NCBI RefSeq assembly: GCF_947623445.1
Contig: NC_135246.1
Span: 18,335,856-18,399,855 of the forward strand
From: Clavelina lepadiformis
Lineage: Eukaryota; Chordata; Ascidiacea; Aplousobranchia; Clavelinidae
Direction: 5' to 3'
DNA length: 64,000 nt
Shown here: positions 12,401-59,960 of the stretch, piece after piece
How the letters are laid out: every line of letters begins with the position of its first letter
Numbering within the stretch: the first letter of the stretch is position 1
Notes under the pieces: model-generated
Seen by the model: only the letters and a program-made list of their open reading frames with translations
The model's database searches: none
What the model was told of the DNA's origin: nothing
Translations under genes and position numbers: made by a program

Positions 12401-15400
12401 TCCCAAGTTTGTCTCCTTTCTCAGGAAGCGAGCTTGATTCACTTTCCCATCTGAAGTGGAAGATGACAAGAGGGATGATTACGGATTCGGATCAGCGGAT
12501 TCGGACAACAGCCATATATTTATGTAACATTATGTTAAATTGAACTTTTGATATTAGTTGAAGATGTTAAGTAAGAAAGTAATATTGTACTATCTCATGT
12601 TTAATCATTGAAGTAAGTATACAAAATAAGAACAGTTACAGCAAAGTTTAAGGTGGAGATTATGCCATAGAATAATGATAACCTGAAGACAAAAACACAA
12701 TTCCTTACCATGACATGCACTGCCATAACAGTATCACTGACTACACAATTTCAAAAAAAGACCTGTTCTTTTCGTCCACTTTAAGGAAAACTTCCTCCAG
12801 TGTTGTGTCACTCAGCCCATAGCTGGACACATTTAACTCCTCCATGTTACGAGGGAGCTCCTCGAACAAGTGATGGAAGCATCCCTTCCTTGCTGCTTCG
12901 AATGGGAGGTTGTACGAAGTTTGATTGGCTGAGTTGTAAGTAACCAACGCTGATGGTACATGGCGGTGCACGAACCTGCCAAACACACACACAGCATGAC
13001 ACAGATAAAACATGTGAAGAACTGTTTACACAGAACTGGATGATGGTTCAGGAGGTCGGCATGTCATGACATATAAACAGAGTAAGCCAGAGATAAAAGA
13101 TGCAGCTCATCTTTGAGCAAAGTGACGCTCACAAATTTTAACTTATTCACATAAATTCAAACTTTTTCTGAAGAGTGCGTAGGGTGACCTACTTTGTTAA
13201 TTTATCCTGAGTCACTTCATTCTCATTGGATGGTTCCTGTGGTCCATGTGATGAATCAGCAATGTTTTCACTATTGGGCTGCATCTAAAATAAGGGATAT
13301 TGTCATATCAGTCTCCCATAATAATAGTAAATAGAACACTATTTATCACAAATGCATTCTGCCAACAGTGTCACAGGCCGGGCTACAGGTTACCAAACAC
13401 AACAATATATGATCATATTTAAAACGTGACACTTTTTCTCTCAATTCTTTTTGCCTCATCCTTTACCGCGTCCTGAAGAGGCAGAACAAACAGAATGAGC
13501 CATACTGACGACGACTGGGTTAATTGTGCGATCTACAGCTGCCAACAAGCACATGGCCAATGGCCACCTCATATACAGTTGCTCAGTTAGTGTCCAAAGT
13601 AGCACAAACCTTCTTTAGAAGAGTGAGTGAATATCCCTCCCCATACATGCTTTTAAGGAACAACGAGCTGCCACAGCATTGCAACTTTCCGTTCGATATT
13701 ATCGCGATTCTATCGCCTGCAAGTTGAGAAAGCAGTGTAACCATAATATTCCTTGTTTGTGTAATTTTGACAGTCATATGTGCAACATGGAAAGTTTGAT
13801 GTCGTGATTCGAAAACAAACAAATCGACGAAATCGTAAACAAATTCGAGTCACCCACCAAGTAAATCGGCTTCATCCATGTGATGGGTCGAAAGCAAGAT
13901 TGTTCGTCCTTCCTTGTATTTGATGATCAAATCCCAGATTGCTCTGCGTGCGTAAGGATCCACTCCTGCTGTAGGTTCATCGAGGATGACGGTACGTGAC
14001 CCGCCCACGAATGCTGAGGAAAGATTAAACTGGTAATTGTTCCATTCGCGCTTCATTATCACGATACAGTGAATGTGAAATATGAAATGAAAAATAGAAT
14101 TTATGATACAGATTTTCCAAAAGAATATGAAGAAATTAGAACTCGACTGACCTATAGCAACCGATAATTTTCTCTTCATTCCTCCAGAAAGCGTGTTCAC
14201 TTTTGACTTTCTCTTCTCTTCAAGACCAACATCAATCAAAAATTGATCCATCTCTTTCAGAATGGTCTCGGATCCAACTCCCTGGTGATGAGGAGCAAAT
14301 ATTATTTAACTCAAAACCAGGACACACTTTGAGCTCTGTGCATAGCACCGGGAAAATGTGGCTAAAATGTTTAGAAAAAGTTTGTTGACTTGGTTGTCCT
14401 ATAGTTTGTGACTGCTTGGTGTGCTACAAATTTATGTGCTTGGGGCAAGATGCAAGTGTCCCCTCGCTGTGCTGCTTTCAACTGCAAAGCAAACTTCTAT
14501 TTACAGCACACTGTTGTTGCACCATGTGTCAATTGTTTAGTTCGTGCATCAGATTGTTTAAGAGTCCAAGTAAGGCTATGTTCAGTGTTTTCCTGTATGT
14601 CTTATTTTTGCCTCATCATTTTTTCTTTGTTAGGTTGTGTTCTGGAGTTTTCCACATTTTCACAGTCACAGTCTGGTACGGTGGTAGGCCTACAGCAGGG
14701 GTGTCAAACTCAATCGCACCAAGGGCCAAAACTCAAAACTTATTTAACGCCGCGAGCCGAATGGATAAAACTTGATTGAACGTTTCCTAACACGAGTTCA
14801 TGAACTGGAACAGGCAGCAAAACAACAAATTTTTCATGTTTTTGACGATTTTTGACTGGGCTATTTTTGATTATTCTTCTCTTACGTCATTATGTTTCAT
14901 TCATCTCCTTGCAAAAGCATTAAAGAATTAACAAACAATAAAGATAAAAGCAGCCCAGATTACAGGCGTTAGAATAAATCTATTTATTCTATCGTATGGT
15001 GGGGCAACTGCTGTGCTACTCTATTGTGCGATTTGTTATAATCTTGTTTCTTGCTTGAAAAAAGTAAATTATACTGTACAATGATCTCGCGGGCCGGAAA
15101 GAGTTCAATGTATAAAATAACATTGTCGGTCAAGTTTTATTGTAAAGCGGGCCGGATGTGGCCCGCGGGCCGGGAGTTTGACACGTATGGCCTACAGTGT
15201 TCTTCACTAATATACTGACCACTCTGCTATTTTTAAATTATTTTTCAATAATTTAGTGATGGAATTTTTCACAATGCCATCTAATAAAAATCTTACAAAT
15301 ACATGTATGCTGAAAAAGTTTTCAGTAGTTGTCTAAAAATTTTATTATTTATGTGTAAAATTAGTTTCTTTGATATTTGTCATATAATATAGTGAAACAA

Positions 15401-41472: not shown

Positions 41473-41962
41473 CTAATAGCGGATACAACAAGGACAGAAG
41501 GAGCGGCAACAACAAGCACAGAAGGAGCGGCAAATAGTGCAACACTCGCCTTCAATATAGGAGTCAGCTGCAAAATATGATTGATCCACAACTTAAGAAT
41601 AAGTTAAAGCAAAAATACTGACTACATTGAGTTTATTTAAGTCACAATATTTAGCTTAATTAGTTCTACTGTATACCGATATTTTAGGTGCAAAATAAAA
41701 CACGAAAACTCAAGTTAAAATGACTTACCGCTCACTTTTAATGGGATTCTACCATCGTTGTTTCTGCATTTGTGACAAAACTACTTAACTCAACACATAT
41801 TTCAAAATTACTACAATAATTTGTTAAAATACAAAAGTTAAAATCAAATAAACTTAATCGTTAAATCACCAAAACTTGATCTTACTTGAAGTAGGGCACG
41901 GCAGAGATTGTGGCTGCGCACAGAAGTGCAAAGACAACGACGTAGATGAGAAGTTTGTTCAT
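41473..41962 (-). CDS. Family I gene A: secreted Cys-rich peptide with expanded cysteine array
   Basis: Three coding exons: 41886-41962, 41729-41763 and 41473-41567, with introns in phase 2 and phase 1; 68 aa. Exon 1 is a signal peptide (MNKLLIYVVVFALLCAATIS, then AVPYFK), probably cut after Ala. Exon 2 adds NNDGRIPLKVS. Exon 3 starts ADSY and holds CCTICRSFCACCCRSFCPCC, ten Cys in 20 residues, produced by a 24-bp tandem duplication of the RSFCxCCC unit. A further 3' untranslated exon (about 41280-41370) ends with a poly-A signal, as in genes C and E. The body resembles C and E, but its promoter side resembles D and F. Cys density recalls hepcidin-like or metallothionein-like peptides; I see no homology to either. 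Confidence 0.8.
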
Positions 41963-42234
41963 CGTCAAAGTGGAAGAAACTTTCAGGAACAAAAATAATT
42001 CTACTTCTCTTCAGTTTTACGGATGCTGAACTAAGCTCATATCACTCACAAATGCCTTCAAGTCTAGAATTTACTAAAAAACACTTCTTTCTTCACTTCG
42101 CGTGCTCACATGCAGGTTTGTCACGTTTCGCAATCATGTCAGCTACAGACGTTCTATATATAACAGTTTATTTAGATACAGAAAAATCTTGTCCGACTTC
42201 CATTTAAAATTTTACAAAGCATCACGTCTGGCAT

Positions 42235-42410
42235 TTATAGGTTATAGAATGTAAAGTAAATGAAACGTAACTAATGTACGAAAAGTGGATGTTACTTAAT
42301 ATCTTTAAGTTTTTTGTCAAATTACTTTGTCTCCAATAATTAGCTTCAATTTTTATTTAATTTTCCGATGCATTTGTAAGTGTCTAATTACGTTCAAACT
42401 TTGTTGTACA
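42235..42410 (+). repeat. Direct repeat bounding a cluster unit (partner 44803-44965)
   Basis: About 165 bp (from TAGAAnnTAAAGTAAATGAAA through TCCGATGCATTTGTAA) recurs nearly unchanged at 44803-44965. The pair brackets gene B and the truncated family II gene, so unequal crossing-over between the copies could amplify or delete that unit. Confidence 0.7.
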
Positions 42411-42603
42411 TCGGTTGACGATTGTATAGGATGGACGATTGTAGCAAATACAGAAGGTGTGAATATACATGAACATTTTAGGATGTTTGACATTGCTGAC
42501 TACTTGTACATTCTGACGAAAATGTGTATGAACGGAGAAATAGGCAAAACTCTGTCTCTATAGATACAAATGGGTGATTTTATTCAAGCTTCTGTTGCAT
42601 TGA

Positions 42604-42650
42604 AGATAAGTAGAGTTCGCATTTGTTCAAAGGGGAGTAACTGCTTATCT
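42604..42650 (+). promoter_or_regulatory. Paired GATA-type motifs upstream of gene B
   Basis: AGATAAG (42604-42610) and inverted CTTATCT (42644-42650) lie about 240-280 bp before the ATG. The same pair at the same spacing precedes gene E. The downstream TATA seen in E and G is degenerate here (AAAATAAAC near 42677). Confidence 0.5.
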
Positions 42651-42689
42651 TACTAGGCAAGCTTTCTTTTGCATTTAAAATAAACTGTT

Positions 42690-44650
42690 GCACACAGGAA
42701 GTCAGTGACTAAACGCATGCTTTCAAAACGTGACAAATCTAAGCACGAACTAGTGACAAAAAACGGATTTTTGGCAAAATACCAACTTAAAGACAGTTGT
42801 TAGTAACATGAGTTTAGTTGATAAGTAAATAAGTTGAGGAGAAGTAGAATTATTTTTGTTTCCAAAAGTTTATTCAAGTTTGACGATGAACAAGCTTCTC
42901 ATCTACGTCGTTGTCTTTGCACTTCTGTGCGCAGCCACAATCTCTGCCTTGCCCTACTTCAAGTAAGATCATGTGTTAGTGGTTTAAAAATTTATTGGCT
43001 TAACTGTCTTATTAGTCATTTACTTTAGACGATTTTAAATTTGTAAAACAAAATTATTTGTTTAATTTATAGAAACACTGCTGGTAGGGGTCTATTGCGA
43101 GAGAGCGGTAAGTTTTCTAAACATATACAATATATTTACATGTACTATATATCTAAATTAGTTATGTAGGCTAGTGTATAATTTAATTAAACAAAGTTTT
43201 ATAACTGAACTCGATCCACAGTAAAGCTTAATCGTTGCTATTTTTCTGCAGCGAATGTCGAAAATCCTGGACGTTTTTGTATTCCTATTTGCGGTTCGCC
43301 TTACTGTTGTATCGCTTAGAAGCAAATGATATAATAAAATTCCTATGCAGACATTTTTATTGTACTCGGACAATTTACAAATATGGGAGTGTTGTTTTTA
43401 ATGTCTACTTTCAATTTCATTAACAACCTTTACATATGGTCACGAAAACAAAGAAAAATCATTGCTCGTTATAAATGAAATAAAATAAAATTATCGGATG
43501 CTTTGAAGGTTTTATTTTGTTAACATTCGTTTAGTTATGTTCACATTTTCAAAAGTAGAAAAGTGTTACGTACCGAGAAATATACCAGGAAAAAAATTAG
43601 GGTGACAAAACTGGCAATCATTTTTATCAGCAAAAGTTTTAAGTTTATAACTCATTTTCAATGCAGTGGACAACCTTAAGCAAACAGGGAATATAGGAGG
43701 AATTAACTTCTGGCGGAAAAGAAGGACTTATGGTTGAAAAAAATAAGTTTAAAAAGTGTTTGAGATCTTTTGTTTGGATATTTGTTTCGCTTTTATTCTT
43801 TTTCGAGCGGAAGTTTTAAATCCAGCTTTAACATATTTTGATCGTACCTACATGAATAGCAAACAGCGTTTGTAATGATGACGTCAAAACACGACTTTCA
43901 AATCAAATGTAAGATGTCGCTGTGAAAAGGTAGAGTTATTCAACGGTAAAAAACTCTTTATAATTCTCTAGAAGACCACCAGAGTCGCAAACAGGAATAG
44001 TAGGTGATCAAGGAAACTTCTTGAACATACAATTAATGTTATTCGCTTGAAAGCCATGACATGACGCAATTATTTCTGACATAAGTAATAACACGCGCAG
44101 AAATAAATCCAATTTCTAACCAAAAATTCGCTGACATTCGATGATGATCAGACATGTCCTAGGAGCACGTCAACTTATGTCGGCGTCAAAACAAAGAAGT
44201 CATTAAAATTGGCTTGAAGGGTGTAAATATTTTGTAATCAATAATTCGATGCAAATATGGCAACGTGCAGGTCTGCCTATGTGGCGTATATATAACTCTA
44301 CGTTAATCATCAGTTGTGCACATCTGAAAAGTTTAGGTCTAGATTTGAATGTAAAGTTACAAAGCTGCAAAAAGTTAGTTAGTGCAGCTCAACAGACGAG
44401 GAGCATTTTTCTGAAACCATCAAATTTGTACCAAATCCGAAAGAGACGGAAGATACTTTGGGTCCATTCTCTAATACTGTACGCTATAAGCTTTTTCTTA
44501 ATTGCTGTCTATGACGCAACAATTAATGGATCAAAGTGACGCACCGGCGACACAATTTTCGGAGGAGACTTCGATGATGATTTTAATTTTTGGACTGCTC
44601 CTTTTCCTTGCAACGAAAATTTACAGGTTGAATTTTCTGCCAGGTTCTAT
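42690..44650 (+). repeat. Segmental duplication, partner 57738-59500
   Basis: Gene B, its downstream flank and the family II first exon recur in the same order as gene G and the 59.4-kb family II gene. The left copy has about 205 extra bases at 43663-43870. Outside that indel the copies differ mostly by single bases. Confidence 0.85.
42886..43319 (+). CDS. Family I gene B: secreted four-Cys peptide
   Basis: Exons 42886-42962, 43073-43107 and 43252-43319 total 180 nt, 59 aa, with intron phases 2 and 1 as in every family member. Exon 1 is the shared signal peptide ending SALPYFK. Exon 2 gives NTAGRGLLRES and exon 3 gives ANVENPGRFCIPICGSPYCC plus IA. The Cys pattern is C-x3-C-x4-C-C. A poly-A signal (AATAAA, 43333-43338) follows the stop at once. 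A TTG-started frame that overlaps exon 1 in another register is a shadow, because it lacks splice agreement. Gene G is its duplicate. Confidence 0.8.
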
Positions 44651-44725
44651 TTGTTAAATTTTATGGTAAATCTTCACCCATTTTTCGCAAACCTCGAGAA
44701 GGGAATATTTGTATATATCACGTGA
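44526..44725 (+). pseudogene. Family II gene 1: membrane microprotein with truncated exon 2
   Basis: Exon 1 (44526-44626) is intact: MDQSDAPATQFSEE, a hydrophobic segment MMILIFGLLLFLA, then TKIY and a donor after AG. In the duplicate at 59 kb, exon 2 starts about 390 bases later. Here a deletion removes the intron 3' end, the acceptor and the first half of exon 2, leaving only ANLEKG..YIT and the stop at 44725. Unspliced translation would stop after a few residues. A TATATATAA box at 44287-44295 is shared with the 59-kb copy. Confidence 0.65.
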
Positions 44726-45980
44726 ACAATTGTGGGAAGACGAAACAAATACTTTTGTCTTCTAAATGCGGAAGTTCAGGGAGCTTACCGTTAGCTTAGG
44801 TCATAGAACATAAAGTAAATGAAAGGTAACTAATATACGAAAAGTGGATGTTACTTAATATCTTTAAGTTTAATGTCAAATTACTTTGTCTCCAATAATT
44901 AGCTTCAATTTTTATTTAATTTTCCGATGCATTTGTAAATGTCTGATTACGATCAAACTTAGTTGTTTAAGATTTTATTGTTCTGGCGAATAACATGCTT
45001 TAAATAATTATTTATAATAACGATTATAATCGTTGTCAACAGATGAACAAGTGCAAGACTGGAGCGTTGCCACAAACAACATTTTTCCTTAAATGCTGAA
45101 AGAAACACGATTATAGGGATCAATAACCTATGCTGCTGTAACTTAGGACTGAAAAATGTGAAAATATGAAAGTTGCAGTCTTTCTATTACATGGTATCCG
45201 TATTACGCTTCTCTCAATCGATCAGAAGATGGTTGCTTATACTAACAGCCCATAGCACTATAACGAGTTATATGACGGGCAGAAAACATTTACCGTGATA
45301 ATGAAGGTAAAAGTGGTTTAACTTTCTTGCTATAACTATAGACCGCAGACAAAAAAAACCACAAAGATATTACGTAAATACGCGATCGTTGGCTTAATAT
45401 TTGGCTGCTAAATGTTTCAGGAGTTGTTAAAATTTTAATTTGTCAAACGAATACGTTAATTTTATCGTAACGATCGCAACGAGCGACTTAAAGTGTAAAA
45501 AGGAAAGCTACTTCAACAAAAGATGATACATATACTTGCACCAACATGTACAGTGTGCATGGTTTTGTTTGCGGTATTTTTGAACAATTCTGAGGATTGT
45601 AGCAAAACATTATAAGGTTTTATCCTGAAAAAGTTTTAAAAGAGATGAGTTTGGTGATCGTAGAAACGCGGTTGCAGGCACAAAGCATTGTTATTTCCTT
45701 GCGCGAATGTAAAAGCAAAACCAACTTTTCAGAAACGTAATTAATTTTCTCTTTGTTTCCGGCTTCTGACTGCGTCATGCTTCCACAACGTGACCGAAAT
45801 AAACACGAACTATCAACAAGATAAATTGTTTTTCATCAGATTTTGAACAACAATCTACAGCAAACCGCGGAGAGTCAGTTGACAAAGGAAGAACTGTTGT
45901 TTTCAGCAGCTTGTAAACTTACGAGCGTCTTTTGACGAAAAGTGCAGTCTTTAATCGCAAAAGCTCCTTCCACTTTGACG

Positions 45981-46440
45981 ATGAACAAACTTCTCATCTA
46001 CGTCGTTGTCTTTGCACTTCTGTGCGCAGCCACAATCTCTGCCTTGCCCTACTTCAAGTAAGATCAAGTGTTAGTTGTTTATCGATTAAGTTTGTTTGAT
46101 TTTAACTATTTATTTTAATAAATTGTCGTAGCTCTTTTGAAATATGTGTTGAGTTAAGTAGTTTTGTCATAAATGCAGAAACAACGATGGTAGAATCCCA
46201 TTAAAAGTGAGCGGTAAGTCATTTAAACTTGAGTGTTCTTGTTTCATTTTGCACCTAAAATCGGCATAGAGTAGAGCTAATTAAGTTAAATATTGTGACT
46301 TAAATAAACTTAATTTTGTCATTATTTTTGCTTTAACTTATTCTTTAGTTGTTGATCAATCATATTTTGCAGCTGACTCCTATCTTGACAAGGGTTGTTG
46401 CGTTGTTTGCCGCTCCTACTGTACTTGTTGTTACACCTAG
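45981..46440 (+). CDS. Family I gene C: secreted six-Cys peptide
   Basis: Exons 45981-46057, 46179-46213 and 46373-46440; 59 aa. After the shared signal peptide (MNKLLIYVVVFALLCAATIS, then ALPYFK), exon 2 encodes NNDGRIPLKVS and exon 3 ADSYLDKGCCVVCRSYCTCC then YT. The Cys pattern is C-C-x2-C-x3-C-x-C-C. Just after the stop there is a donor (AGCAA|GTAATA). A 3' untranslated exon starts at 46542 and carries AATAAA at 46598-46603, so the gene probably has four exons. The promoter side differs from B, E and G. E is its closest relative; A shares exons 2 and 3. Confidence 0.82.
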
Positions 46441-47106
46441 AAGCAAGTAATATGACTTCTTTAGTTTCTTATTCGAAACATCTTAGCTTCATGTGAGTAC
46501 ACATTAAACAATAACGTTTTTCTAACGTTTTTATTTTTCAGAAGAAAAACGCCAACAGCTATTTGGGCAGACATCACCGGTTATAAAGAGATTAAATAAT
46601 AAAATACAATACTCAGACGTTTTGTTTTATTGTGTTTATTTATTTAGTTAAGGCCAGTTGTAGTTTTCATTGCCTCAAAATAAAAATGTCATATTTTTTT
46701 CTGCCCCTGTTTATCATATATTGTGATCACCCGGAGTACTTAAATTGAAAATTCTAACCATCACATTCTGGATAAACTTGGGACGACATCATAATGTGGC
46801 CGTGACGTAATACGTTTTTGCATAGGAAATTTTAAGAGGAGAAAGCATTCAGTCAAAAGTGATAGCATTAGCACATTAAGCTTATATGTCGAAAGTATGA
46901 TGTAAATTAAAACAAGAGCTATGCTGCACAACGAACGAGAAAGGTGCATCACAAATTTAGTTTAGGCCAGGGCTAGATCCAAAACTATTGCGTAGAAAGC
47001 GGAGGAAGACTCGATGTGAAATGTCTTGTAAGCTTTTCATAAATGAAAACGTGCATATGTGCATGAGAATATAACAGACGTTAAAAAGAAGGATTGGTTT
47101 GGTTGC

Positions 47107-47246
47107 AAGAATGCAATGTAGGCCCAATGCGGCGTCACCATCTATGCCACGTCTCTGAAACCTGTTTCCATATTGCAGTTGACTCGAACTACGCCGGACA
47201 ATGTTGCTTTGCTTGCCTTCATGCTGGGCTTGCTGTTACGTCTTGA
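47107..47246 (+). pseudogene. Relic I: decayed family I copy, signal exon joined to Cys exon
   Basis: 47111-47155 resembles the second half of the signal exon, but the register is broken. It runs straight into an intron end (CATATTGCAG) and a third-exon frame, 47179-47246, encoding DSNYAGQCCFACLHAG, whose DSY and CC-x2-C match gene C. Most of intron 1, exon 2 and intron 2 is missing. The flank after it resembles the 3' side of gene C. Confidence 0.6.
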
Positions 47247-48535
47247 GGTGAACAACTCTCACTATACTTTGTACGCTGGATATTTAAGCTTCATTTGAGC
47301 ACATTTTAAGCGATAAGTCGTCGATTACTTTTTGGTTGTGTGGAAAGGGAAACAACAAGTTTACTGCCAGACGCTACTGATTGTTTAAGAATGGTAATGT
47401 CGTTAAATAAAGCACAATTTTCCAACGGCTTCTTGTTTAATTTTTCTGTACGTTGGTGTTCACAGTAAAATCATAAGTTTAATATTTGGAGACATATTTG
47501 AATTGTTTATAGTTTGTGTGACGAAAAAGGCTTCCTTGTCATGTAGTGTCTACTGTTTTTATTGTCGCTGACTTCAACTGCACGCAAGTGACGCAATAAT
47601 AATATCTTGTCAATTCTGTTTCTGATAAATCTTTTCGAAACTAAGCTTTTGAGTTTTGAGGTTTTTCTAGTTTTAAGGACGTGACGATAATCTTTTAACA
47701 AAAAACATATTTTGCTGTTCATTTTCTCTATGTGTTGTAATAACCACAACAACATTTGCGTCTTATGCATTCTCCTTGAAGACGCGTGACGCTGTTTCCT
47801 AATTAGAAAATAAGCAATTGCATGATGCTGTGATTTGTATGGCTCATAACTATAAACACAATTAATTAACCTGCGCACTTTATTAAGATTTTGTTTAAAT
47901 AAACACAATTAAACTTGACAGCGAAATACTTTAGTGTTACATTTCATATTTCTTCACATTATTATTCTTGAAGCCAGTCTGAAAATACAAAACAATATTA
48001 ACAAAATTCATTAATTGAAAATAAAGTATCATATGCTGAAAAATAAAACGTTTTACGGTTCAGCTTTATGATTCTTAAACGTTTTCCCAGAACAGACTTT
48101 TAAATTTTTACAGAAAACATTTGTCATGTTGACCTCAACAGCTGGCGCCTATCAAGTTTAATTATCATCATATTGGATAGTTACAAATGTTACATAGCCT
48201 AGTTTTTAACGTACATGTTATAAAATCAGAACAAATGCCAAAAGCTATACAAATACTTAACATCTAAATTATCAACGCAAGATCCATTCAAAAACACAAC
48301 GCTTTTCTGTCAAAACTAGGAGGTGAAGCACATAAATTCTCATTCACAATGGTCTACCCATCCCGAAATATACTGAAGTAACAGGAATACGAGACTGACA
48401 AATGTTTAAGGTTAAAAACTAGAAACAAACTTCAAATCCAACTCTACAAGTTTTACGTGAACGAAAATTTAAGTTTTTGTTTGTAGAATGCGGCAAAATG
48501 TTTCCATATCCAGCTCTGATAGCCCATCAATTACT

Positions 48536-49003
48536 CTACACAAGCTTATGTTCAGCTTCGGTTGAAAACCATAATACTTTAAAGGCAAAATTTGAAAACC
48601 TACCGCAGTCTGGAGAACATTCAAAACTGGGGTATTTGGCATCGACTGCAAAAAAATTAACATTTGTATCCAAGCACAGTAGTAATTTTTAAATATTTTT
48701 CACATATTTTTACAAACATTTGTTTTGACAAGCTGAATGTTAAGTGTAATATTGAGGAAGAGAATTGGCAAAGAAAATATGCAACACCAAAGAACAACTT
48801 ACCGCTCTTTTCTAAGGAAACCTTTGCATCGACAGCCCTGCCAATAAAACAGAGAACTTAGTTTACGAACCTACTCAGTAGTAGTCCAACGTTACGACTC
48901 GCAAAAGCACTCAAACATGATCTTACTTGAAGTAGGGCAAGGCAGAGATTGTGGCTGCGCACAGAAGTGCAAAGACAACGACGTAGATGAGAAGTTTGTT
49001 CAT
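48536..49003 (-). CDS. Family I gene D: two-Cys variant
   Basis: Exon 1 (48927-49003) is the shared signal peptide and exon 2 (48803-48837) gives AVDAKVSLEKS with the usual phases. Exon 3 starts at 48645 with VDAKYPSFECSPDC (pattern C-x3-C, as at the start of gene B's Cys part). There are two ways to end. A donor GTAGGT after 48604 could join an acceptor at 47979-47981, giving DWLQE and a stop (47962). Otherwise exon 3 reads on to the stop at 48536, adding about 23 residues without Cys. The donor is kept in copy F while the read-through differs there, which mildly favours splicing. Confidence 0.6.
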
Positions 49004-51370
49004 CGTCAAAATGGAAGAAACTTAGGAACAAAAATAATGCTCAATTCTCTTCAATTTAGCGAATGCTGAACTGAACTGGTATCACTCACAAACGTTTTCA
49101 AATTTAGAAATTTCTGCAAAAAGTGTCTTCCTTTACTTTCGTGCCTATAGCTTTGTCACGTTTCGCAATCATGCGCTTGTAGACTTGGAACAAAAAAGCT
49201 TGGCCAGTAAGATAAAAGATCACTTCCGTTTGAACTTTAGTCTTTTACAAAGAAAGTCTGGCATTAAGGGAAAGAATATCAAGTAAATTGAACGTGATTA
49301 CTTTCAGAAAAATTGATGTTATGGGCAAAATAAATTTTTTGGTAAAAACGCTTTGTCCTTAATAATTAACTTGTGCACTTCTCGTCAAAGATGATCATAT
49401 AAAATTGCTCATAACGATCTTAGAGTTTACAAACTGCTGAAAAAAACTTCTTCCTTTGCACTAGATTTTCTGGCCTTTGCTGGACTGTTGCGTGTAAACT
49501 GGCCTGAAGACAGTTTTCCTGTTTTCTAATTGATGTATATTTTTGTAAAGTTCTGAAAAATCGGTTTGATTTTTTTTATTTTTACAGGAAAGTCGCAATG
49601 CATCATGCCTGTAGCCACGTGTCTACGATCACCAAATTTGCATCTCTTTAAAATTGTTTGCTGATGAAACCGGATGATGTCTTTATCTACAAAGTTCGCA
49701 ATCCTTCGAAAATACTGCAAAGAAAAATACATACACTTTGGTGCAAGTGCATGAATCATTTGTAAGTCGCTTTGTGGGGAATTGAAGGAGTCGTCAACTT
49801 TGTAAATATATTTAAAGACAAGTTGGTAAAATTGACTTGACTTAATTGCTACTATTAGCGGAATACTATATACGCGCTTTTTGATCTCAATTACATATGA
49901 TTATTAATAACCAATCAAGCCAAAGCGGCAGGCACAATTAGGGGCAAAGTTTAATCGTGAAAAATTTCAGAAACTATATAATTACAAAATAACAGCAACT
50001 TGTTTGCGCACAGTTATTCGACGAGTAGAAATTTTATGTAATTTATCATCTCTTTCCACTTTATTTCGGAGATATGCACACACTAATGTTCAGATATATT
50101 AAAACCATGTTTAAACAGGGTAACGTCAAACAGACAGCTTTAAAACTGTATCAAATGATTCGTCACATCATGGCTTTATCACAAGTGTAAAGCAAATTGG
50201 CTGGAACTAGTTTTGTCGAGAAGACATAAGACTAAACACATAAGACAAGATGGAGCAAGTCTAACTGCCATGAAGATATCTCATCTAAGCCTAATCTTCT
50301 GAGGCCAGAAAACACTTAAACATATTAATTCACAATGTTTATTTTGTTTCTTTTTTAACAGCTTTTTTAGCAGTTTTTCCAATTGTTGGAATGCAGAATA
50401 CATCACGATCGAGGCCGAAGTCAGGATAATGTCAAGTTCAATAACGTTCAAAGAAAAACAAAATGCCACTGCATGATTCCATTCTATTTGAATGAATAAG
50501 ACAACTGTCGATAAAACAAAGAAATGATTAAAATTGCTGAGTAAATCCAAAGAATATCTTATAATCAATAATTCGATTCCTGCAAAACCATTCATTGACC
50601 ATGACTGTGACATAAATATGCGTTTGATGTAGGTGAAGGTGCAGTTTGATGTTCTCATGAAGATGGAGATTTTTAGTAGATTTTAGATGTTATGGTTTCA
50701 TTTTTAGTTTACGACTCCAGGTTTCATTCAATTTGCAGCAGAGTGATTCATAAAATAAACAATAAACTTTTCACAATAACCTTTATGGTGGTTATGAAAA
50801 GCATGATTATTATAAGCACGTATAAATTGCATATCTCTGCACAAAGGCTGTACGGCATGGTTAAACATCTGCAGTTCTACAATTTCACGATTCTACGTTT
50901 AAAATTACCCTTACATAAGACCTACGTTGCTATACTTTTATTTGTTTTATAACAGACCTTTTTTCAGTCAGAAGTTTTCGAATAATTATAAATGTTTTAT
51001 GGAAAAGGATGTGGAAGCACAAACGTCAAAAAATTAATTTATACAGAAATTAATATTTCGATAATTAACATTCCAAACTTCGTAATATAAATCTTAAAGC
51101 AAATTATTTTGACATTTCTTTATCAATTTTATTTAACTCTATTGATCAAACTAATTCAAATTCTTCAATTTAACCAAAAATATCAGAATTTTTGACCTTT
51201 TGTTTTATCCCATTTGCTGTTGGGATATTTCAGTGTAGTTAATATATTTACGTGTAGTAACATTTTTTCTGGCCTTAAATATGCAAAAGATAGTTTTAAA
51301 AAGATAGTTTTGGTTTTAAAATTTGTAATATATTGTTTTGTCACAGTTTCGTTGATGACGCCAATCATCG
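49004..51370. other. Spacer between gene D and family II gene 2
   Basis: The first 200 bases are the gene D promoter side, which resembles that of gene A (shared GTTTGTCACGTTT-type words and a run of CTCACAAA). No other gene is supported. Frames near 49526-49759, 50281-50658 and 50692-50952 have no duplicate, domain or splice support. Confidence 0.4.
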
Positions 51371-52169
51371 ATGGATCAAACTGCTACAACTGAGACGACT
51401 TTCTACTCAGAAGAGATTTTGGTGACGATTCTTGTCTGCGGACTGTTCATTTTTCTTTTTCTTAAAATTTATAGGTTCGGTTATTGCTGATTATTACGTA
51501 GTTGATATCTTCACTCGTCTAACATGTTAAGTTAAATTTAGCTACTAAATTTGTAAAATGAACTTTAATTTTCTAAAGGAGGGATTAAGATAGCCTACAT
51601 ATATATGTTTAGATATTAGTACAGTATGTACAAACACTAAACGTGTATTTATTTGTCATTTAATGTTACTTTGCAAAGGACATCTTCGTTCGCCTTTGTT
51701 ACGACAGTGCTTTAATTATAGTCTCCAATCGCCATTGACAAACGTAACACGCGCGCGTGTGCAATGTTTCTTAATTATGACGTAATTGGCTCATTACCTT
51801 TGCGGTTGGCTGTGGTTCAGTCATAAGCTGACAACTGTTTCAGTTTTCGCCTTGAGTGCTGTCTGCTTCTTCTTGTAAAGCTTTAATTCTCTTTTGAGCA
51901 CCGAGAAAATACGAGAATGTGTTGAGGCTTTTCCACTGGCGTTAACAACGTTGTAACAACGACTTATACTGTGCAACGAGACCTTCTACGGAATACACAA
52001 TAACAGCTGCGCAGAAGTGACGCGACAGTGAGTTGTGTAGATTTTAAGGTTTTGAAGCTCAGTTGCTTGTATACGCAGGTGTGCAAAGATGATCATTGAC
52101 CCGTACGGCAACATAGATGCGGAGGCTTTGTCAAATCTCGAGAAAGGAACTTTGCAAAGTTTCATGTGA
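51371..52169 (+). CDS. Family II gene 2: single-pass membrane microprotein
   Basis: Exons 51371-51474 and 52079-52169; phase-2 intron; 64 aa. The N-terminus MDQTATTETTFYSEE is acidic and Thr-rich. A helix ILVTILVCGLFIFLFL follows, then KIYR across the splice, CAKMIIDPYGNIDAEALS, and NLEKGTLQSFM. With no signal peptide and one helix followed by K and R, the positive-inside rule predicts N-out, C-in. The start was chosen because MDQ aligns with the other loci. Compared with the 59- and 62-kb genes, the sequence diverges while the helix, IYRCA, DPY and KGT are kept. Function unknown. Confidence 0.75.
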
Positions 52170-53741
52170 ACGATGGTGGAAAACGAGAGGAGATTCTTTC
52201 GTAACCCAATTAGGAAAGCTGTTAAATTTCCTGATTTTTGGTTTCGGCTTCTGATGAAAAAGAGCGGCAGCTTAAACATGACGATTCATCGTTGACGACA
52301 ACTCGAATTTCTTCTCCAACGCTGCATTATCGGTTGAACCAACGATATGGTTGAACTATCACTATAATGGCAGTTGCAAAAACACTTTGACCTTGTCGTT
52401 AAATAAGTTGACAAAAGACTTCAACATCAATTAGAGTTTGAATTTCAGCAAGTTTTATTTCGTTTTTTTTGTGTTTGTTGGTGTTCTTGTTTGTTAATTT
52501 ATTTTGATATCCCACCCCGGTGCAATTTAAAACTTTAGACAATTAATTATGAAAAGAAAACTCAGTCGATTTGAAAGAAACTTAAAGTAGTCTGCAAACG
52601 TAGAAATGTGATCGTAAAGAAATTTGTTTTCTTTTAATTTATAAAGAAGGTCAATCTATAGCCCTTGACAACATGTTTTTCTATGCACACCCCAGAATAC
52701 GATTACGGACGTGTAGATGAAACACGGAATTTCTTGTTTGCTTTTGATCAAGTAGCTTTTTGATCGGTTTGCGTTTGAGACAAATTTTCCACATTGTCTT
52801 GGTGATTTTTTCATTTTGACGCATTGTTTGTGTTTTCCGTGCAGGTATACTCGCGCACAGCTGGAGTGCAACATAAAAATTCCATAGCTTGAGCGTGCGT
52901 GTCCATACGTTATGGGCAAACTCAGAATTAAACCGCTGTTTTAGAATCTTGGCGAAAAGTTCAACAATCGATCATTCATTTTACTTTGATCATTTAGCAA
53001 CAATCATTCGCTTAATTCGTGGCTTGTCTATACTTATGGTGTTCTTAATTGATTATTGATTTCAATTAAAAATCTTATATGCTCGTGGCGTCGCTCCATT
53101 ATCCTTGTGGACGTTCTAGAATTAGGCTGCTGTAATTATACAACATGTTAAAAACTAAATTTGCAGTATTTAGGCGTGCAATTATCCACATGTCCAAGAA
53201 CAGGAAATAACTTTTCGCGAAAATTTGTGATGTGATAAAATTACAAAATGTTTCGTAGCGTAAGGGGCAAATTGAACATGCCATGCAGGATTACCAATCC
53301 AGGATCAGTGTTATAAGCCCTAACGGTAATCGGTAAATACGGAAAACAGCCAAGTAAAATTGCACCCTTAGGCTTAAGGATTTGCAATAATCGTTTAGAA
53401 ATAAGACACGTTTATGAAATTTATAACTAGGTTTCTCCGTTAGTTTCATGTGTGAGTGACAACTATAGAAATTCTCCAAATGACATGTTTTTCATTCACA
53501 GCACGGCATTGTAGGAAGAGAAAGGTCGTCTCCGTAGAAGAACGTTTGAAGATCTTTTGATCGATTTAAATGTTTCTGCTTTCTATGTTTGAAATATTTA
53601 TTGTCTCCTTAGTATTTTTTCTATATAGTGCAAAGGTTAAAGACTTTGTTTATTCGTGGAACCCTTCGCTTTCCGTCCACAGCTCCCTGTTTGAAGCCAG
53701 ATATGTTTATTTTTGGAAATTCGTTCTTGTGTTGGTGTCAC
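52170..53741. other. Spacer, no supported gene
   Basis: Short minus-strand frames near 52656-52919 and 53099-53479 have no domain, duplicate or splice support. I see no element with clear ends. Confidence 0.4.
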
Positions 53742-53818
53742 TTGAAGTAGGGCAAGGCAGAGGTCGTGCAGGCTGCGCATAAAGGGTCAAGCACAACGAC
53801 GTAGAGAAGTTTGTTCAT
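53742..53818 (-). pseudogene. Relic H: orphan, diverged family I signal exon
   Basis: A 77-nt exon-1 homologue of the standard length, with ATG and a GT donor, reading MNKLLYVVVLDPLCAACTTS then ALPYFK. An Asp-Pro in the hydrophobic core would weaken a signal peptide. I find no exon 2 or 3 on its left. Its start codon abuts the gene E promoter block, so its own promoter appears lost. Confidence 0.6.
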
Positions 53819-53828
53819 GGTCAAACTG

Positions 53829-54283
53829 GACGATTGTAGAAAATACAGAAGGCGTGAATGAATATGAACATTTTAGGATGTTTAACATTGCTGACTACTT
53901 GTACATTCTGACGAAAATGTGTATGAACAGAGAAATAGACAAAACTCTGTCTCTATAGATACAAATGGGTAATTTTATTCAAGCTTTTGTTGCATTGAAG
54001 ATAAGTAGAGTTGGCATTTGTTCAAACGGAAGTAACTCCTTATCTTACTAGGCAAGCTTTCTTTTGCATTTATATAAACTGTTGCACACAGGAAGTCATT
54101 GACTAAACGCATGCTTTCAAAACGTGACAAACCTAAGCACGAACTAGTGACGAAAAACTGATTTTTGGAAAAATACCAACTTAAAGACAGTTGTTAGTAA
54201 CGTGAGTTTAGTTGACAAGTAAATAAGTTGAGGAGAAGTAGAATTATTTTTGTTTCCAAAAGTTTATTCCATTTTGACGATGA
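53829..54283 (+). repeat. Promoter block of gene E, duplicated from the gene B upstream region
   Basis: The stretch from GGACGATTGTAG to the ATG matches 42430-42890 with only scattered differences, and its last 200 bases also match 57738-57949 before gene G. Three genes with different mature peptides therefore share related upstream sequence. Confidence 0.85.
53999..54078 (+). promoter_or_regulatory. GATA pair plus TATA box upstream of gene E
   Basis: AGATAAG (53999-54005), inverted CTTATCT (54039-54045) and TATATAAA (54071-54078), about 200 bp before the ATG. The arrangement fits a TATA promoter driven by a GATA factor, as is common in gut or blood-cell genes of animals; the tissue is inference. 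Confidence 0.55.
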
Positions 54284-54739
54284 ACAAACTTCTCATCTAC
54301 GCCGTTGTCTTTGCACTTCTGTGCGCAGCCACAATCTCTGCCTTGCCCTACTTCAAGTAAGATCAAGTTTCGTTGTTTGTCGATTAAGTTTGTTTGATTT
54401 TAACTTTTTATTTTAACAAATTATCGTAGCTATTTTGAAATATGTGTTGAGTTACGTAATTTTGTTATAAATGCAGAAACAACGATGGTAGGATCCCATT
54501 GAAAGTGAGCGGTGAGTCATTTAAACTTGAGTTTTCTTGTTTCATTTTGCACCTTAAAATCGGCAAAGAGTAAAGCTAATTAAGTTAGATATTGTGACTT
54601 AAATAAACTTAATTTTGTCATTATTTTTGCTTTAATTTATTCTTTAGCTGTTGATCCATCATATTTTGCAGCTGACTCCTATCTTGACAAGGGTTGTTGC
54701 GTTGTTTGCCGCTCCTACTGTACTTGTTGTTACGCCTAG
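54280..54739 (+). CDS. Family I gene E: secreted six-Cys peptide, duplicate of C
   Basis: Exons 54280-54356, 54477-54511 and 54672-54739; 59 aa. It differs from gene C at two residues, one in the signal peptide (Ala for Val in LIYAVV) and the last residue (CCYA for CCYT). The exon 2 donor is GTGAGT rather than GTAAGT. The 3' untranslated exon (after CAG near 54840) and its AATAAA are kept. The promoter, however, is of the B/G type, so this copy pairs a C-type body with a B-type upstream region. Confidence 0.82.
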
Positions 54740-55399
54740 AAGCAAGTAATATGACTTCTTTAGTTTCTTATTCTAAACATCTTAGCTTCATGTGAGTACA
54801 CTTTAAACAAAAACGTTTTTTAACGTTTTTATTTTTCAGAAGGAAAACGCCAACAGTAATTAGGGCAGACATTACCGGCTATAAAGAGATTAAATAATAA
54901 AATGCAATATTCAGACCTTTTGTTTTATTGTCTTTATTTATGTAGTTAAGACCAGTTATAGTTTTCATTGCCTCAAAATAAGAAAGTTATATTTTTTTCT
55001 GCGCCTGTTTATCATATATTGTGGTCACCCGGAATACTTAAGTTGAAAATTCTAACCATCACATTCTGGACAAATTTGGGATGACATTATAATGTGGTCG
55101 TGACGTAATACGTTTATGCCTAGGAAATTTTAAGAGGTAAAAGCATTCAGTCAAAAGTGATACCCTTAGCACATTCAGCATAAATGTCGAAAATATGATA
55201 TAAATTGAAACAAGAGTTATGCTGTAGAACGAACGACAAACGTGCATCACAAATTTAGTTTAAGCAAGGGCTAGATCCAAAACTATTGCGTAGAAAGCGG
55301 CGGAAGACTCGATGTGAAATGTCTTTTAAGCTTTTCATAAATAAAAACGTGCATATGTGCATGAGAATAAAACAGAAGTTAAAATGAAGGATTGGTTTG

Positions 55400-55493
55400 G
55401 TTGCAAGAACGCCATGTTATGCGAAGCCACCATATCTGCCACGTCTCTGAAACCTGTTTCCATATTGCAGTTGACTCGAACTACACCGGATAA
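55400..55493 (+). pseudogene. Relic J: duplicate of relic I with in-frame stop
   Basis: The signal-exon remnant (about 55410-55450, with LCEATISA) is followed by CATATTGCAG and a third-exon frame, DSNYTG, that ends in TAA at 55491-55493 where relic I has CAA, before any Cys. It is clearly non-functional as a Cys peptide. Confidence 0.65.
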
Positions 55494-56905
55494 TGTTGCT
55501 TTGCTTGCCTTCATGCTGGGCTTGCTGTTAAATCTTGAGGTGAACAACTCTCACTATGCTTTGTACGCTAGGCATTGAAGTTTCTTTTGAACACATTTGA
55601 AGCGATAAGTCGTCTATTCCTTTTTTTGCTGTGGAGAAAGGGAGACAACAAGTTTAGTGCCAGCCGCTACTGATTGTTCAAGAATGGTAATGTCGTTAAA
55701 TGAAACACAATTCTCCAACGGCTTCTTGTTTAATTGTTCTTTGCGTAAGTGTTCCCAGTAAAATCATAAGTTTAATATTTGGAGCCATATTTGAATTGTT
55801 TATAGTTTGTGTGACGACAAAGGCTTGCTTGTCATGTAGTATCTCGTGTTATTATTGTCGCTGACTTCAACTGCTCGCAAGTGACGCAATAATAATATCT
55901 TGTCGCTTTTGTTTATGACGAATCTCTTCGAAAATAAGCTTTCGAGTTTTGAGGCTTTTCGAGTTTTAAGGACGTGACGATAATTTTTTCACAAAAAACA
56001 TATTTTGCTTTTCATTTTCCTCTATGTGTTGTAACAACAACAACAACATTTGCTTCTTATGCATTCTCCTTGAAGACGCGTGACGCTGTTTCCTAATTAA
56101 AAAAAAAGCAATTGCATGATGCTGTGATTTGTATGGCTCATAACTATAAGCACAATAAATTAACCTGTGCACTTTATTGAGATTTTGTTTAAATAAACAC
56201 AATTAAGTTTGACAGCAAATTACTTCAGTGTTACATTTCATATTTCTTCACATTATTGTTCTTGAAGCCAGTCTGAAAAAACAAACCAATGTTAACAAAA
56301 TTATTATTTAAATAATAAAGTATCTTATGCTGAAAAACCGAAAAGTTTTACGGTTCAGCTTAATGGTTCTTAAACGTTTTCTCAGAACAGACTTTTAAAT
56401 TTTTACAAAAAACATTTGCCACGTTGACCTCAACAGCTGGCGCCTATCAAGTTTAAATATCATGATATTGGATAGTTACAAATGTTACATAGCCTAGTTT
56501 TTTTACATACATGTTGTAAAATCAGAACAAATGCAAAAAGCTATACAAATACTTAACACCTAAATTATCAACGCAATTAAAAGATCCATTCGAAATCACA
56601 ACGCTTTTCTGTCAAAACTAGGATGTGAAACACATAAATTCTCATTCACAATGGCCTACCCATCCCGAAATATACTAAAGTGACAAGAATACGAGACTGA
56701 CAAATGCTTAAGGCTAAAAAGTAGAAACAAACTTAAACTCCAACTCTACAAGTTTTACGAGAACGAAAAATTAAGTTTTTGTTTGTAGAACGCGGCAAAA
56801 TGTTTCCATATCCATCTCTGATAGCGCATCAATTGCTCTACACAAGTTTATGTTCAACTCCGGTTAAAACCCATAATACTTAAAAGGCAAAATTTGTAAA
56901 CCTAC

Positions 56906-57321
56906 CGCACTCTGGAGAACATTCAAAACTGGGGTATATGGCATCGACTGCAAAAAAATTAACATTTGTATACAAGCACAGTAGCAATTTTTAAATATTT
57001 TTCACATATTTGTACTTACAACAATTTTTACAAACATTTGTTTTGACAAGCTGAATGTTAAGTGTAATATTGAGGAACATAATTGGCAAATAAAATATGC
57101 AGCACCAAAGAACAACTTACCGCTCTTTTCTAAGGAGACCTTTGCATCGACAGCCCTGCCAATAAAATAGAGAACTTAGTTTACGAACCTACTCAGTAGT
57201 AGTCCAACGTTAGGACCCGCAAAAGCACCTAAACATGATCTTACTTGAAGTAGGGCAAGGCAGAGATTGTGGCTGCGCACAGAAGTGCAAAGACAACGAC
57301 GTAGATGAGAAGTTTGTTTAT
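56906..57321 (-). pseudogene. Family I copy F: duplicate of gene D without its start codon
   Basis: Exon 1 (57245-57321), exon 2 (57121-57155) and exon 3 (56906-56947, VDAIYPSFECSPEC) keep the splice sites and phases of gene D. The initiator is ATA instead of ATG (57319-57321), and no in-frame ATG lies in the rest of the signal exon. It is a likely pseudogene, unless translation starts elsewhere or the base is an error or polymorphism. The putative fourth exon near 56265 is also kept, with one more codon than in D. Confidence 0.7.
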
Positions 57322-57737
57322 CGTCAAAATGGAAGAAACTTAGGAACAAAAATAACTCTCAATTCTCTTCAATTTAGCGAACGCTGAACTGAACTGGTAT
57401 CGCTCACAAATGTTTTCAAATTTAGAAATTTCTGAAAAGCATTTCTTCCTTTACTTTCGTGCCTATAGCTTTGTCACGTTTTACAATCATGCGCTTGTAG
57501 ACTTAGAACAAAAAAGCTCGGCCAGTAAGATAAAACGTCACTTCCGTTTGAACTTTTAGTCTTTTACAAAGAAAGTCTGGCATTTAGGGAAAGAATATCA
57601 AGTAAATTGAACGTGATTACTTTCAGAAAAATTGATGTTATACGCAATATAAATTTTTTGGTAAAAACGCTTTGTCCCTAACTACGCTTTCTTTTGCATT
57701 TATATTCTTTGTCCCTAACTACGCTTCCTTTTGCATT

Positions 57738-57745
57738 TATATAAA
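57738..57745 (+). promoter_or_regulatory. TATA box upstream of gene G
   Basis: TATATAAA, in the same context as before gene E (TTTTGCATT..ACTGTT), about 200 bp before the ATG. The GATA pair seen before B and E is not retained here, because the duplicated block starts close to this point. Confidence 0.5.
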
Positions 57746-57946
57746 CTGTTACACACAGAAAGTCAGTGACTAAACGCATGCTTTCAAAACGTGACAAAAC
57801 TAAGCACGAACTAGTGACGAAAAACAGATTTTTGGTAAAATACCAACTTAAAGACAATTGTTAATAACGCGAGTTTAGTTGACAAGTAAACGAGTTGAGG
57901 AGAAGTAGAATTATTTTTTTTTCCAAAAGTTTATTCAAGTTTGACG

Positions 57947-58373
57947 ATGAACAAGCTTCTCATCTACGCCGTTGTCTTTGCACTTCTGTGCGCAGCCACA
58001 ATCTCTGCCTTGCCCTACTTCAAGTAAGATCATGTGTTAGTGGTTTAAACATTTATTGGCTTAACTGTCTTATTAGTCATTTACTTTAGACGATTTTAAA
58101 TTTGTAAAACAAAATTATTTGTTTAATTTATAGAAACACTGCTACTTTGATTCCATTGCGAGAGAGTGGTAAGTTAAACATATACAATATATTTACATGT
58201 ACTATATATCTAAATTAGTTATGTAGGCTAGTGTATAATTTAATTAAACAAAGTTTTATAACTGAACTCGATCCACAGTAAAGCTTAATCGTTGCTATTT
58301 TTCTGCAGCGAATGTCGAAAATCCTGGACTTATTTGTAGTCCTATTTGTGCGCCTTCCTGTTGTATCGCTTAG
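57947..58373 (+). CDS. Family I gene G: secreted four-Cys peptide, duplicate of B
   Basis: Exons 57947-58023, 58134-58168 and 58309-58373; 177 nt, 58 aa. The signal peptide has LIYAVV. Exon 2 is NTATLIPLRES and exon 3 ANVENPGLICSPICAPSCC then IA, with Cys pattern C-x3-C-x3-C-C. Compared with gene B, the signal exon and the flanking introns are nearly identical, but exon 2 and the Cys loop carry several replacements and a net one-codon deletion. That concentration suggests positive selection or relaxed constraint on the mature part. Confidence 0.8.
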
Positions 58374-59374: not shown

Positions 59375-59960
59375 ATGGATCAAAATGGCGCATCGGCGAC
59401 ACAATTTTCGGAGGAGAGTTTGATGATGATTTTAATCTTTGGACTGCTCCTTTTCCTTGCAACGAAAATTTACAGGTTAACTTTTCTGCCAGATTCTATT
59501 TGATAAAATTTATTCAGCCATTTAACATGGGCTTTTGACATTAAAAATTAAACGTTTGCGAATGGAGGCTTATTTGCTACGACGCACTAATAGCTGACTG
59601 TAGAATTTGTGAAGGTTTATGAGAAAACCTTTAACACATATATATTTTTAATTTGATCGTTACAAGCAATTTGTTATGAAATAACGAGATCGCGTTGAGT
59701 CAATTTTAAAAGCGTCTGTTTAATATCAACCTAAAAGAATTAATTAGATCCCTGAAGGATACACTTATTCACAGCCAGTATTTTTAAAAGGCGTCGTCAC
59801 AGCAACGTAAAAGCGTATACCAGAGAATCATGTACATTTCGAGATTTTGACGCTCAGTTATATACACAGGTGTGCAAAGGTGATCGTGGATCCATACGGC
59901 GATCTAGATGACGACGTTTTCACAAACCTCGAGAAGGGAACATTTCCATATATCACGTGA
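59375..59960 (+). CDS. Family II gene 3: single-pass membrane microprotein
   Basis: Exons 59375-59475 and 59870-59960; 63 aa; phase-2 intron. MDQNGASATQFSEE, helix LMMILIFGLLLFLA, TKIYR, then CAKVIVDPYGDLDDDVFTN, LEKGTFPYIT. A second frame through exon 1 (59275-59538) is longer as a raw ORF but is not shared with the 51- and 62-kb loci, so I reject it. TATATATAA at 59136-59144 is about 230 bp upstream. It is the intact sister of the truncated gene at 44.5 kb. Confidence 0.75.

Follow-up and report, generated by a model that had tools for sequence, protein, structure and literature searches.

Genes for short, probably secreted cysteine-rich peptides form a locally duplicated family in the ascidian Clavelina lepadiformis

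Background

Two short neutral peptides of the ascidian Synoicum turgens, St-CRP-1 and St-CRP-2, share the cysteine (Cys) arrangement CC-x2-C-x3-C-x5/6-CC and were isolated with no gene data in the available text of their description, whose authors remark that gene characterisation could reveal relationships (PMC13208793). The same text reports a moderate, selective antibacterial activity of St-CRP-1, for which direct action on bacteria is possibly not the main function according to its authors, no effect of this peptide on brine shrimp or two mammalian cell lines, and the presence of the CC-C-C-CC framework in most of the conotoxin M family (PMC13208793). Here, we describe a cluster of genes for predicted short Cys-rich peptides in Clavelina lepadiformis, the light-bulb sea squirt, a colonial ascidian of the Aplousobranchia. 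The cluster lies in a 64,000-nt stretch of chromosome 7 (18335856-18399855), hereafter called the window. Short disulfide peptides of an aplousobranch have been isolated without a gene, and the cluster supplies candidate precursor genes, predicted peptide masses and a chromosomal locus for such peptides in another aplousobranch. We consider it fairly likely that the cluster represents a lineage-specific, locally duplicated family of short secreted disulfide-rich peptides, plausibly for host defence.

Conotoxin genes have a conserved signal. They are compared with the Clavelina genes here as systems that may work alike, and in this respect only. Genes of the conotoxin M superfamily also have three exons corresponding approximately to signal, pro-region and mature part, but, as far as the available text goes, their intron phases are 1 then 2, as in most superfamilies (2 then 1 in Clavelina), their introns exceed 3 kb (89-173 nt in the window), and they belong to another phylum (PMC3862624). 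The CRP-I family of Mytilus resembles the Clavelina cluster in its clustered paralogues and pseudogenes, conserved signal, diverse Cys exon and members with multiplied Cys arrays, whereas its C-C-CC-C-C knottin array and dibasic cleavage site are both missing from the Clavelina family; the available text proposes a defence role for it, though antibacterial activity was judged unlikely (PMC10138031).

Results and discussion

Structure of the gene family

All eight 77-nt signal exons of the original prediction were found, clustered at 41.5-58.4 kb of the window (Table 1). Seven of them (A, B, C, D, E, F and G) lead, as predicted, into a 35-nt exon 2 and a Cys-bearing exon 3 with intron phases 2 and 1 and with GT-AG borders, from which we infer splicing. 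The lengths of exons 1 and 2, the phases and the borders are identical in all seven followed copies and in H, an intact gene approximately 0.5 Mb from the cluster on chromosome 7 (18,889,551 onward). Intron 1 measures 89-122 nt and intron 2 140-173 nt in the window, and 168 and 155 nt, respectively, in H. The exon begins with ATGAAC, except in F, which reads ATAAAC; GTAAG follows the exon (GTGAC in the decayed copy at 53.7 kb). Near the start lies the hydrophobic stretch LIYVVVFALLCAATI (mean Kyte-Doolittle value 2.78), followed by S-A; hydropathy was the sole signal-peptide measure.

The predicted products comprise 68 amino acids (aa) with 10 Cys after the signal in A, 59 aa with 4 Cys in B, 59 aa with 6 Cys in each of C, E and H, 56 aa with 2 Cys in D and 58 aa with 4 Cys in G, while F, with 57 codons and 2 Cys, has lost its ATG. 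The core reads CC-x2-C-x3-C-x-CC in C, E and H. A carries the same core plus a second C-x3-C-x-CC unit, B and G have C-x3-C-x3/4-CC, and D has C-x3-C, so that the predicted range of Cys patterns, from C-x3-C to ten Cys in 20 residues (A), was recovered. The predicted monoisotopic masses of the oxidised cores are close to 1656.5 (C), 1626.5 (E), 1702.5 (H) and 1484.6 Da (B), and those of the 38-residue forms are 4290.9 (C) and 4265.8 Da (H). The length range had been given as 58-68 aa and becomes 56-68 aa because D is best closed by a fourth exon. Start, splice sites and stop are retained in A, B, C, D, E and G. This agrees with the completeness claimed for A, B, C, E and G, except that A, C and E carry a further downstream exon with AATAAA, which they have in common with H and which is untranslated in the Cys frame; in B and G, AATAAA starts 14 nt past the stop. 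D had been called plausible and is so if a fourth coding exon is admitted, and we propose that in both D and F such an exon closes the frame within a few codons. The family, described as three-exon, thus comprises genes of three or four exons.

Decayed copies accompany these genes. No exon 2 or 3 was found near the 53.7-kb signal exon in a scan with all exons. The two relics claimed at 47.1 and 55.4 kb are, judging by alignment, decayed H-type Cys exons: a 29-nt core of the former is 86% identical to the Cys exon of H, and the latter, itself below the threshold of the all-exon scan, is a 90% duplicate of it at a spacing of 8292. In both, the likeness to H is confined to the Cys-exon part. A further H-like Cys-exon relic, its frame broken by eye, lies 1.7 kb upstream of H (L036:3359-3419; L036 to L042 denote the scanned genomic stretches described below).

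A pyrimidine-rich stretch ending in AAG was seen by eye just 5' of the ATG in several copies (e.g., approximately 54243-54279) and is a candidate spliced-leader acceptor.

Table 1 Features of the peptide gene cluster in window coordinates
Feature	Position	Strand	Basis
A exon 1, predicted signal peptide	41886..41962	-	signal-exon genome search, gene model
A exon 2, spacer	41729..41763	-	gene model
A exon 3, ten Cys; C-R-S-F-C-x-C-C unit twice	41473..41567	-	gene model
A downstream exon 4 to AATAAA; start used by database protein P0002	41313..41374	-	gene model
B exon 1	42886..42962	+	signal-exon genome search, gene model
B exon 2	43073..43107	+	gene model
B exon 3, four Cys; AATAAA 14 nt past stop	43252..43319	+	gene model
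C exon 1	45981..46057	+	signal-exon genome search, gene model
C exon 2	46179..46213	+	gene model
C exon 3, CC-x2-C-x3-C-x-CC	46373..46440	+	gene model
C downstream exon 4 to AATAAA, untranslated in Cys frame	46542..46603	+	gene model
Putative relic of H-type Cys exon, best-matching core	47188..47216	+	alignment to H, all-exon scan
D exon 1, identical to C exon 1	48927..49003	-	gene model, alignment
D exon 2	48803..48837	-	gene model
D exon 3, two Cys, GT donor at end	48604..48645	-	gene model
D exon 4 (proposed), last codons and stop	47962..47978	-	gene model; counterpart in F at 56253-56272
Decayed signal exon without exons 2-3	53742..53818	-	signal-exon search, all-exon scan
E exon 1	54280..54356	+	signal-exon genome search, gene model
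E exon 2	54477..54511	+	gene model
E exon 3, CC-x2-C-x3-C-x-CC	54672..54739	+	gene model
E downstream exon 4 to AATAAA	54840..54901	+	gene model
Second putative relic, H-type Cys exon	55480..55508	+	placed by duplicate at 47188-47216
F exon 1, start codon ATA	57245..57321	-	alignment
F exon 2	57121..57155	-	gene model
F exon 3	56906..56947	-	gene model
F exon 4 (proposed, like D)	56253..56272	-	gene model
G exon 1	57947..58023	+	signal-exon genome search, gene model
G exon 2	58134..58168	+	gene model
G exon 3, four Cys; AATAAA 14 nt past stop	58309..58373	+	gene model

The Cys reading frame

Two family members correspond to unnamed C. lepadiformis proteins in NCBI/UniRef, P0001 (H) and P0002 (A). 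Both are located on one 15.4-Mb contig and are therefore apparently derived from another assembly. P0001 equals the spliced H product in the Cys frame except for one residue, and both proteins are consistent with the joins of exons 1, 2 and 3. Annotation by open reading frames had been expected to miss the family but did not miss these two members, P0002 being in a Cys-free frame.

Exon 3 of C and H differs at 25/68 bases, and all six Cys are kept (null p 2.2e-4 in one direction and 3.2e-4 in the other); between C and A, 15/66 bases changed and again 6/6 Cys are kept (p 0.009). An alignment of A to C and E over exon 3 was distorted by the extra unit of A and was not used. Nonsynonymous and synonymous divergence (dN/dS) in exons 2-3 amounted to 0.012/0.10 for C-E, 0.31/1.21 for C-H, 0.033/0.066 for D-F and 0.18/0.09 for B-G, and the pairs C-E and C-H show purifying constraint in the Cys frame. 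Changes in exon 3 by codon position 1, 2 and 3 (6, 8 and 11 for C-H; 6, 6 and 3 for A-C; 2, 3 and 1 for B-G) do not discriminate the frames. Overall, the genes and their Cys frame are well supported.

Distribution in the genome

The genome searched comprised 209 Mb in 95 contigs. With the full signal exon as the query, ten places were found by both DNA and protein search (weakest expect value, E = 6.4e-14), namely, the eight in the window, gene H and, on chromosome 2, a drifted copy named I. Matches to a degenerate 14-base start pattern, one mismatch being allowed, numbered 13, eight of them family copies; 4.85 matches were expected (standard deviation 2.18), and 0/100 shuffles reached 13. A chance run of start-like patterns was rejected on the basis of this shuffle test and the full-exon search. 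A mobile element, the known-transposon alternative raised by the original prediction, was also rejected, because each of the ten places is either a gene copy with the shared exon order or a relic of one.

With downstream exons as DNA queries, the C exon 2-4 region recovered A, C and E, exons 2-3 of B recovered B and G, and those of D recovered D, F and part of I. Neither the Cys-exon peptide of H nor its exon 2-4 DNA matched anything in the genome except H itself, missing the known relatives A, C and E and the relics. The ten places are thus a lower bound, since the downstream-exon searches are insensitive, and divergent members may exist. All exons were additionally scanned against 9-10 kb stretches surrounding H, surrounding I and flanking the window at either end (L036-L039), as well as against three more around H (L040-L042). 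No family exon matched in L038 or L039. Short matches in L040-L042 (E 0.017-0.08) and an 18-nt match at window position 34882 (E 0.006) were taken as chance. No exon 3 was found in the stretch surrounding copy I, where a D-type 3' part is present (L037:2157-2221). A decayed-looking sequence resembling heat-shock protein 70 was noticed by eye beside this copy (L037:400-1240).

The array is largely made up of an 8.3-kb duplication (C to D versus E to F) and the B/G pair, approximately 15 kb apart. Therefore, the eight copies are not eight independent observations.

Conservation of the signal exon

The signal exon is more conserved than its neighbours, silent sites included. Exon 1 of C and D is identical at 77/77 positions, compared with 18/35 for exon 2 in an ungapped alignment. 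When the surroundings of exon 1 were compared in ungapped 20-nt bins, C and D matched upstream, going outward, at 17, 9, 5 and 4 of 20 positions (4-5 of 20 at 41-80 nt) and in the intron at 15, 10, 10 and 11 of 20 (10-11 at 20-79 nt), a clear fall that stays above chance on the intron side. D and H match at 73/77 positions of exon 1, and their bins drop to 5-8 of 20 matches upstream of -20 and to 4-7 past +20. Across the 14 fourfold sites of exon 1, A, B, D, E, F and G are identical to C, and H departs from C at one; for C-H, this conservation has P = 5.9e-5 given the dS of the pair, and 0.05 or 0.20 under an assumed divergence of 0.3 or 0.2. Copy I, by comparison with D, has 9/77 positions changed in exon 1, not far below the 14/88 in intron 1.

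B and G are near-identical from exon 1 through intron 2, except in exon 2, whereas their outer flanks are 7% different, a mosaic that looks like patchy gene conversion. For the identity of exon 1, we favour gene conversion inside the cluster as the probable cause, nucleotide-level constraint being the alternative, above all for H. The cluster constitutes a small system in which an exon conserved at silent sites stands amid diverging neighbours, together with a relic showing the unconstrained rate.

The signal exon block also occurs in head-to-head inverted copies, 42835-42992 with 41856-42013 (821 nt apart) and 57916-58046 with 57222-57352 (563 nt apart), an arrangement that might promote gene conversion or palindrome instability.

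Diversification of the spacer and Cys exons

The tips of the peptides vary in Cys number and spacing, which does not prove driven change. Between B and G, 13/100 sites of exons 2-3 are different, compared with 38/779 for all noncoding sites of the same alignment (p = 0.0046). The introns of this pair, which may have been homogenised, differ at 1/250 sites in that alignment and at 5/250 in a separate intron alignment. Seven of the 13 changes fall within 11 nt; counted as one event, they leave p = 0.32 versus all noncoding sites and p = 6e-4 versus introns. Strong positive selection was rejected, given that the B-G excess over all noncoding sequence rests on this one 11-nt cluster. No excess of changes over introns was found in exons 2-3 of C-E or D-F.

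Relatives and closest known peptides

Searches of approximately 5.8 billion proteins with C and with an eight-member alignment found no relative outside Clavelina, within a reach limited to proteins of similar length with five-residue words in common. The letters of St-CRP-1 placed behind the Clavelina leader matched P0001 alone. None of the eight members scored above a Pfam cut-off, five had no match at all, and no peptide-toxin family was matched; the sub-threshold matches were to dystroglycan for C and E (12.6 and 11.3 versus 23.3 bits) and to TetR_C_42 for D (E 8.7e-4, 20.1 versus 27 bits). A PDB search gave no match at E <= 10. The AlphaFold model of P0001 alone (mean predicted local distance difference test score, 66; predicted template modelling score, 0.39) was too poor for use. 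Neither a name nor a description of the family was found in the literature among the matches listed, which is weak evidence, as these were judged by titles and abstract starts, with preprints and most subscription papers outside the scope. The family had been called undescribed, and this stands as far as the literature matches listed go, although the two unnamed database proteins exist. As far as searched, the family appears specific to Clavelina, and its nature as a family of Cys-rich, probably secreted peptides is well supported.

The closest described mature peptides appear to be the St-CRPs, homology being unproven. They come from the same order and are short and near-neutral. Their six-Cys CC-C-C-CC framework recurs in C, E, H and the first array of A but not in B, G or D, and the CC-x2-C-x3-C loops and the terminal CC equal those of C, E, H and the first unit of A. 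A longer stretch, CC-x2-C-Y-x-aromatic-C-R, is common to St-CRP-1 and H, the final R being W in P0001. The disulfides of St-CRPs connect C1-C6, C2-C4 and C3-C5. By contrast, the fourth loop has 5-6 residues in St-CRPs and 1 in the Clavelina family, and St-CRPs are described as amidated at the C terminus in the available text, whereas in C, E and H the stop directly follows Y-T or Y-A, and a Gly is lacking. We did not file the family as St-CRPs because, in shuffles that keep CC at either end, the shared first loop lengths arise with an approximately 3.5% chance, and because the Clavelina products have a different fourth loop and lack the amidation Gly. Turgencins A and B of S. turgens are likewise Cys-rich aplousobranch peptides, whose first two Cys are spaced C-x3-C, like those of B, G and D, but in the available description, they have no adjacent Cys, comprise 35-36 residues, and are cationic and amidated (PMC7024374).

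We put forward, tentatively, a bolder reading that we consider less likely than not. Aplousobranch ascidians as a group would use a class of very short CC-C-C-CC peptides, whose precursor genes would here be known for the first time, and St-CRPs would be the mature products of related genes. The family would diversify in a conotoxin-like manner in a chordate: conversion tracts that fade close to the borders of the signal exon would keep it identical, including at silent sites, as the peptide exons diverge.

Proposed function and alternatives

The anatomy, copy number, Cys conservation and, in two pairs, purifying constraint in the Cys frame are observations; the functional course that follows is our proposal. 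Exon 1 would specify a signal peptide that is cleaved off. A spacer would span exon 2 and the first part of exon 3, whose last part would hold the compact Cys core. The likely course would be secretion, itself likely, then trimming near the Cys core, an uncertain step, and oxidation to a small cross-linked peptide, disulfides being expected. This peptide might act outside the cell in host defence, a role discussed for St-CRPs, which offer the idea a concrete comparator; host defence is a reasoned guess with about an even chance of being right. New copies would arise by local, partly inverted duplication, with the signal exon held near-identical by gene conversion in the cluster and/or nucleotide-level constraint while the spacer and Cys exons diverge.

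Several points weigh against this reading. The gene models rest on genomic sequence and two database proteins, and one of the latter, P0002, corresponds to A spliced at an exon-2 donor 7 nt upstream, with a Cys-free tail through exon 4, except for one residue. The mature parts have net charges of -3 to +2 and, unlike classic antimicrobial peptides, are not strongly cationic. A dibasic cleavage site was found in 0/7 products, and a basic residue lies at most two positions from the first Cys in just four of the seven (B, C, E and H). The data do not establish that the Cys exons evolve faster.

The near-neutral cores would also fit a non-antimicrobial role, and the authors of the St-CRP study allow, in the available text, that direct bacterial action may not be the main function of the moderately and selectively antibacterial St-CRP-1 (PMC13208793). 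The same genes and peptides could serve in signalling, as a neuropeptide or a gamete or colony-specific cue, or in predator deterrence, which we regard as unlikely but worth serious attention. The changes in copy number, the relics and the varied Cys scaffolds would suit a defence family better than a conserved hormone, and the reported inactivity of St-CRP-1 on brine shrimp and two mammalian cell lines argues against deterrence if the comparison holds (PMC13208793).

Another possibility is that the array is decaying, most copies being untranscribed duplicates or pseudogenes, and that only H or one or two members matter. The missing ATG of F, the dead 53.7-kb copy and two relics, the drift of copy I, which has no exon 3 found nearby, and the little constraint in D-F all point in this direction. 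However, start, splice sites and stop are intact in A, B, C, D, E and G, and two of the three differences between C and E in exons 2-3 are silent, making this quite improbable.

P0002, which fits A through the upstream donor and exon 4 with one residue changed, would be explained if the true product were in the Cys-free frame and the Cys-rich reading accidental. Tandem GT donors 7 nt apart are indeed present in exon 2 of A, C, E and H (C: 46207-46219), and the alternative frame was also seen to be open by eye in C, E and H. We nevertheless judge this very unlikely: the upstream GT is missing in B, D, F and G, P0001 carries the Cys frame of H, all six Cys are preserved between C and H, and C-E and C-H both have a dN lower than their dS in the Cys frame. 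Moreover, an open overlapping frame is expected, since a TGY codon shifted by one base reads GYN. P0001 and P0002, being in different frames, exemplify how automatic annotation can stumble on such genes.

Finally, secreted metal-binding, metallothionein-like peptides are suggested by the dense Cys, above all the ten in 20 residues of A, but are very improbable given the few Cys in B, G and D (four, four and two) and a signal peptide, which is unusual for metallothioneins.

Neighbouring sequences

Three copies of a two-exon, single-membrane-span microprotein gene are interleaved with the cluster on the plus strand (51371-51474 with 52079-52169; 59375-59475 with 59870-59960; and 44526-44626, with a possible second exon near 44692). 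The two products that lent themselves to splicing match the Pfam family Cortexin (PF11057) at 26.0 and 26.3 bits, just above its cut-off of 25 bits. Some of these microprotein genes separate the Cys-peptide genes and others adjoin them, and the two kinds may have been duplicated together. In the left part of the window, which may hold ATP-binding cassette (ABC) transporter genes, a fragment resembling an ABC transporter ATPase at 13850-14251 on the minus strand scored just under the Pfam cut-offs.

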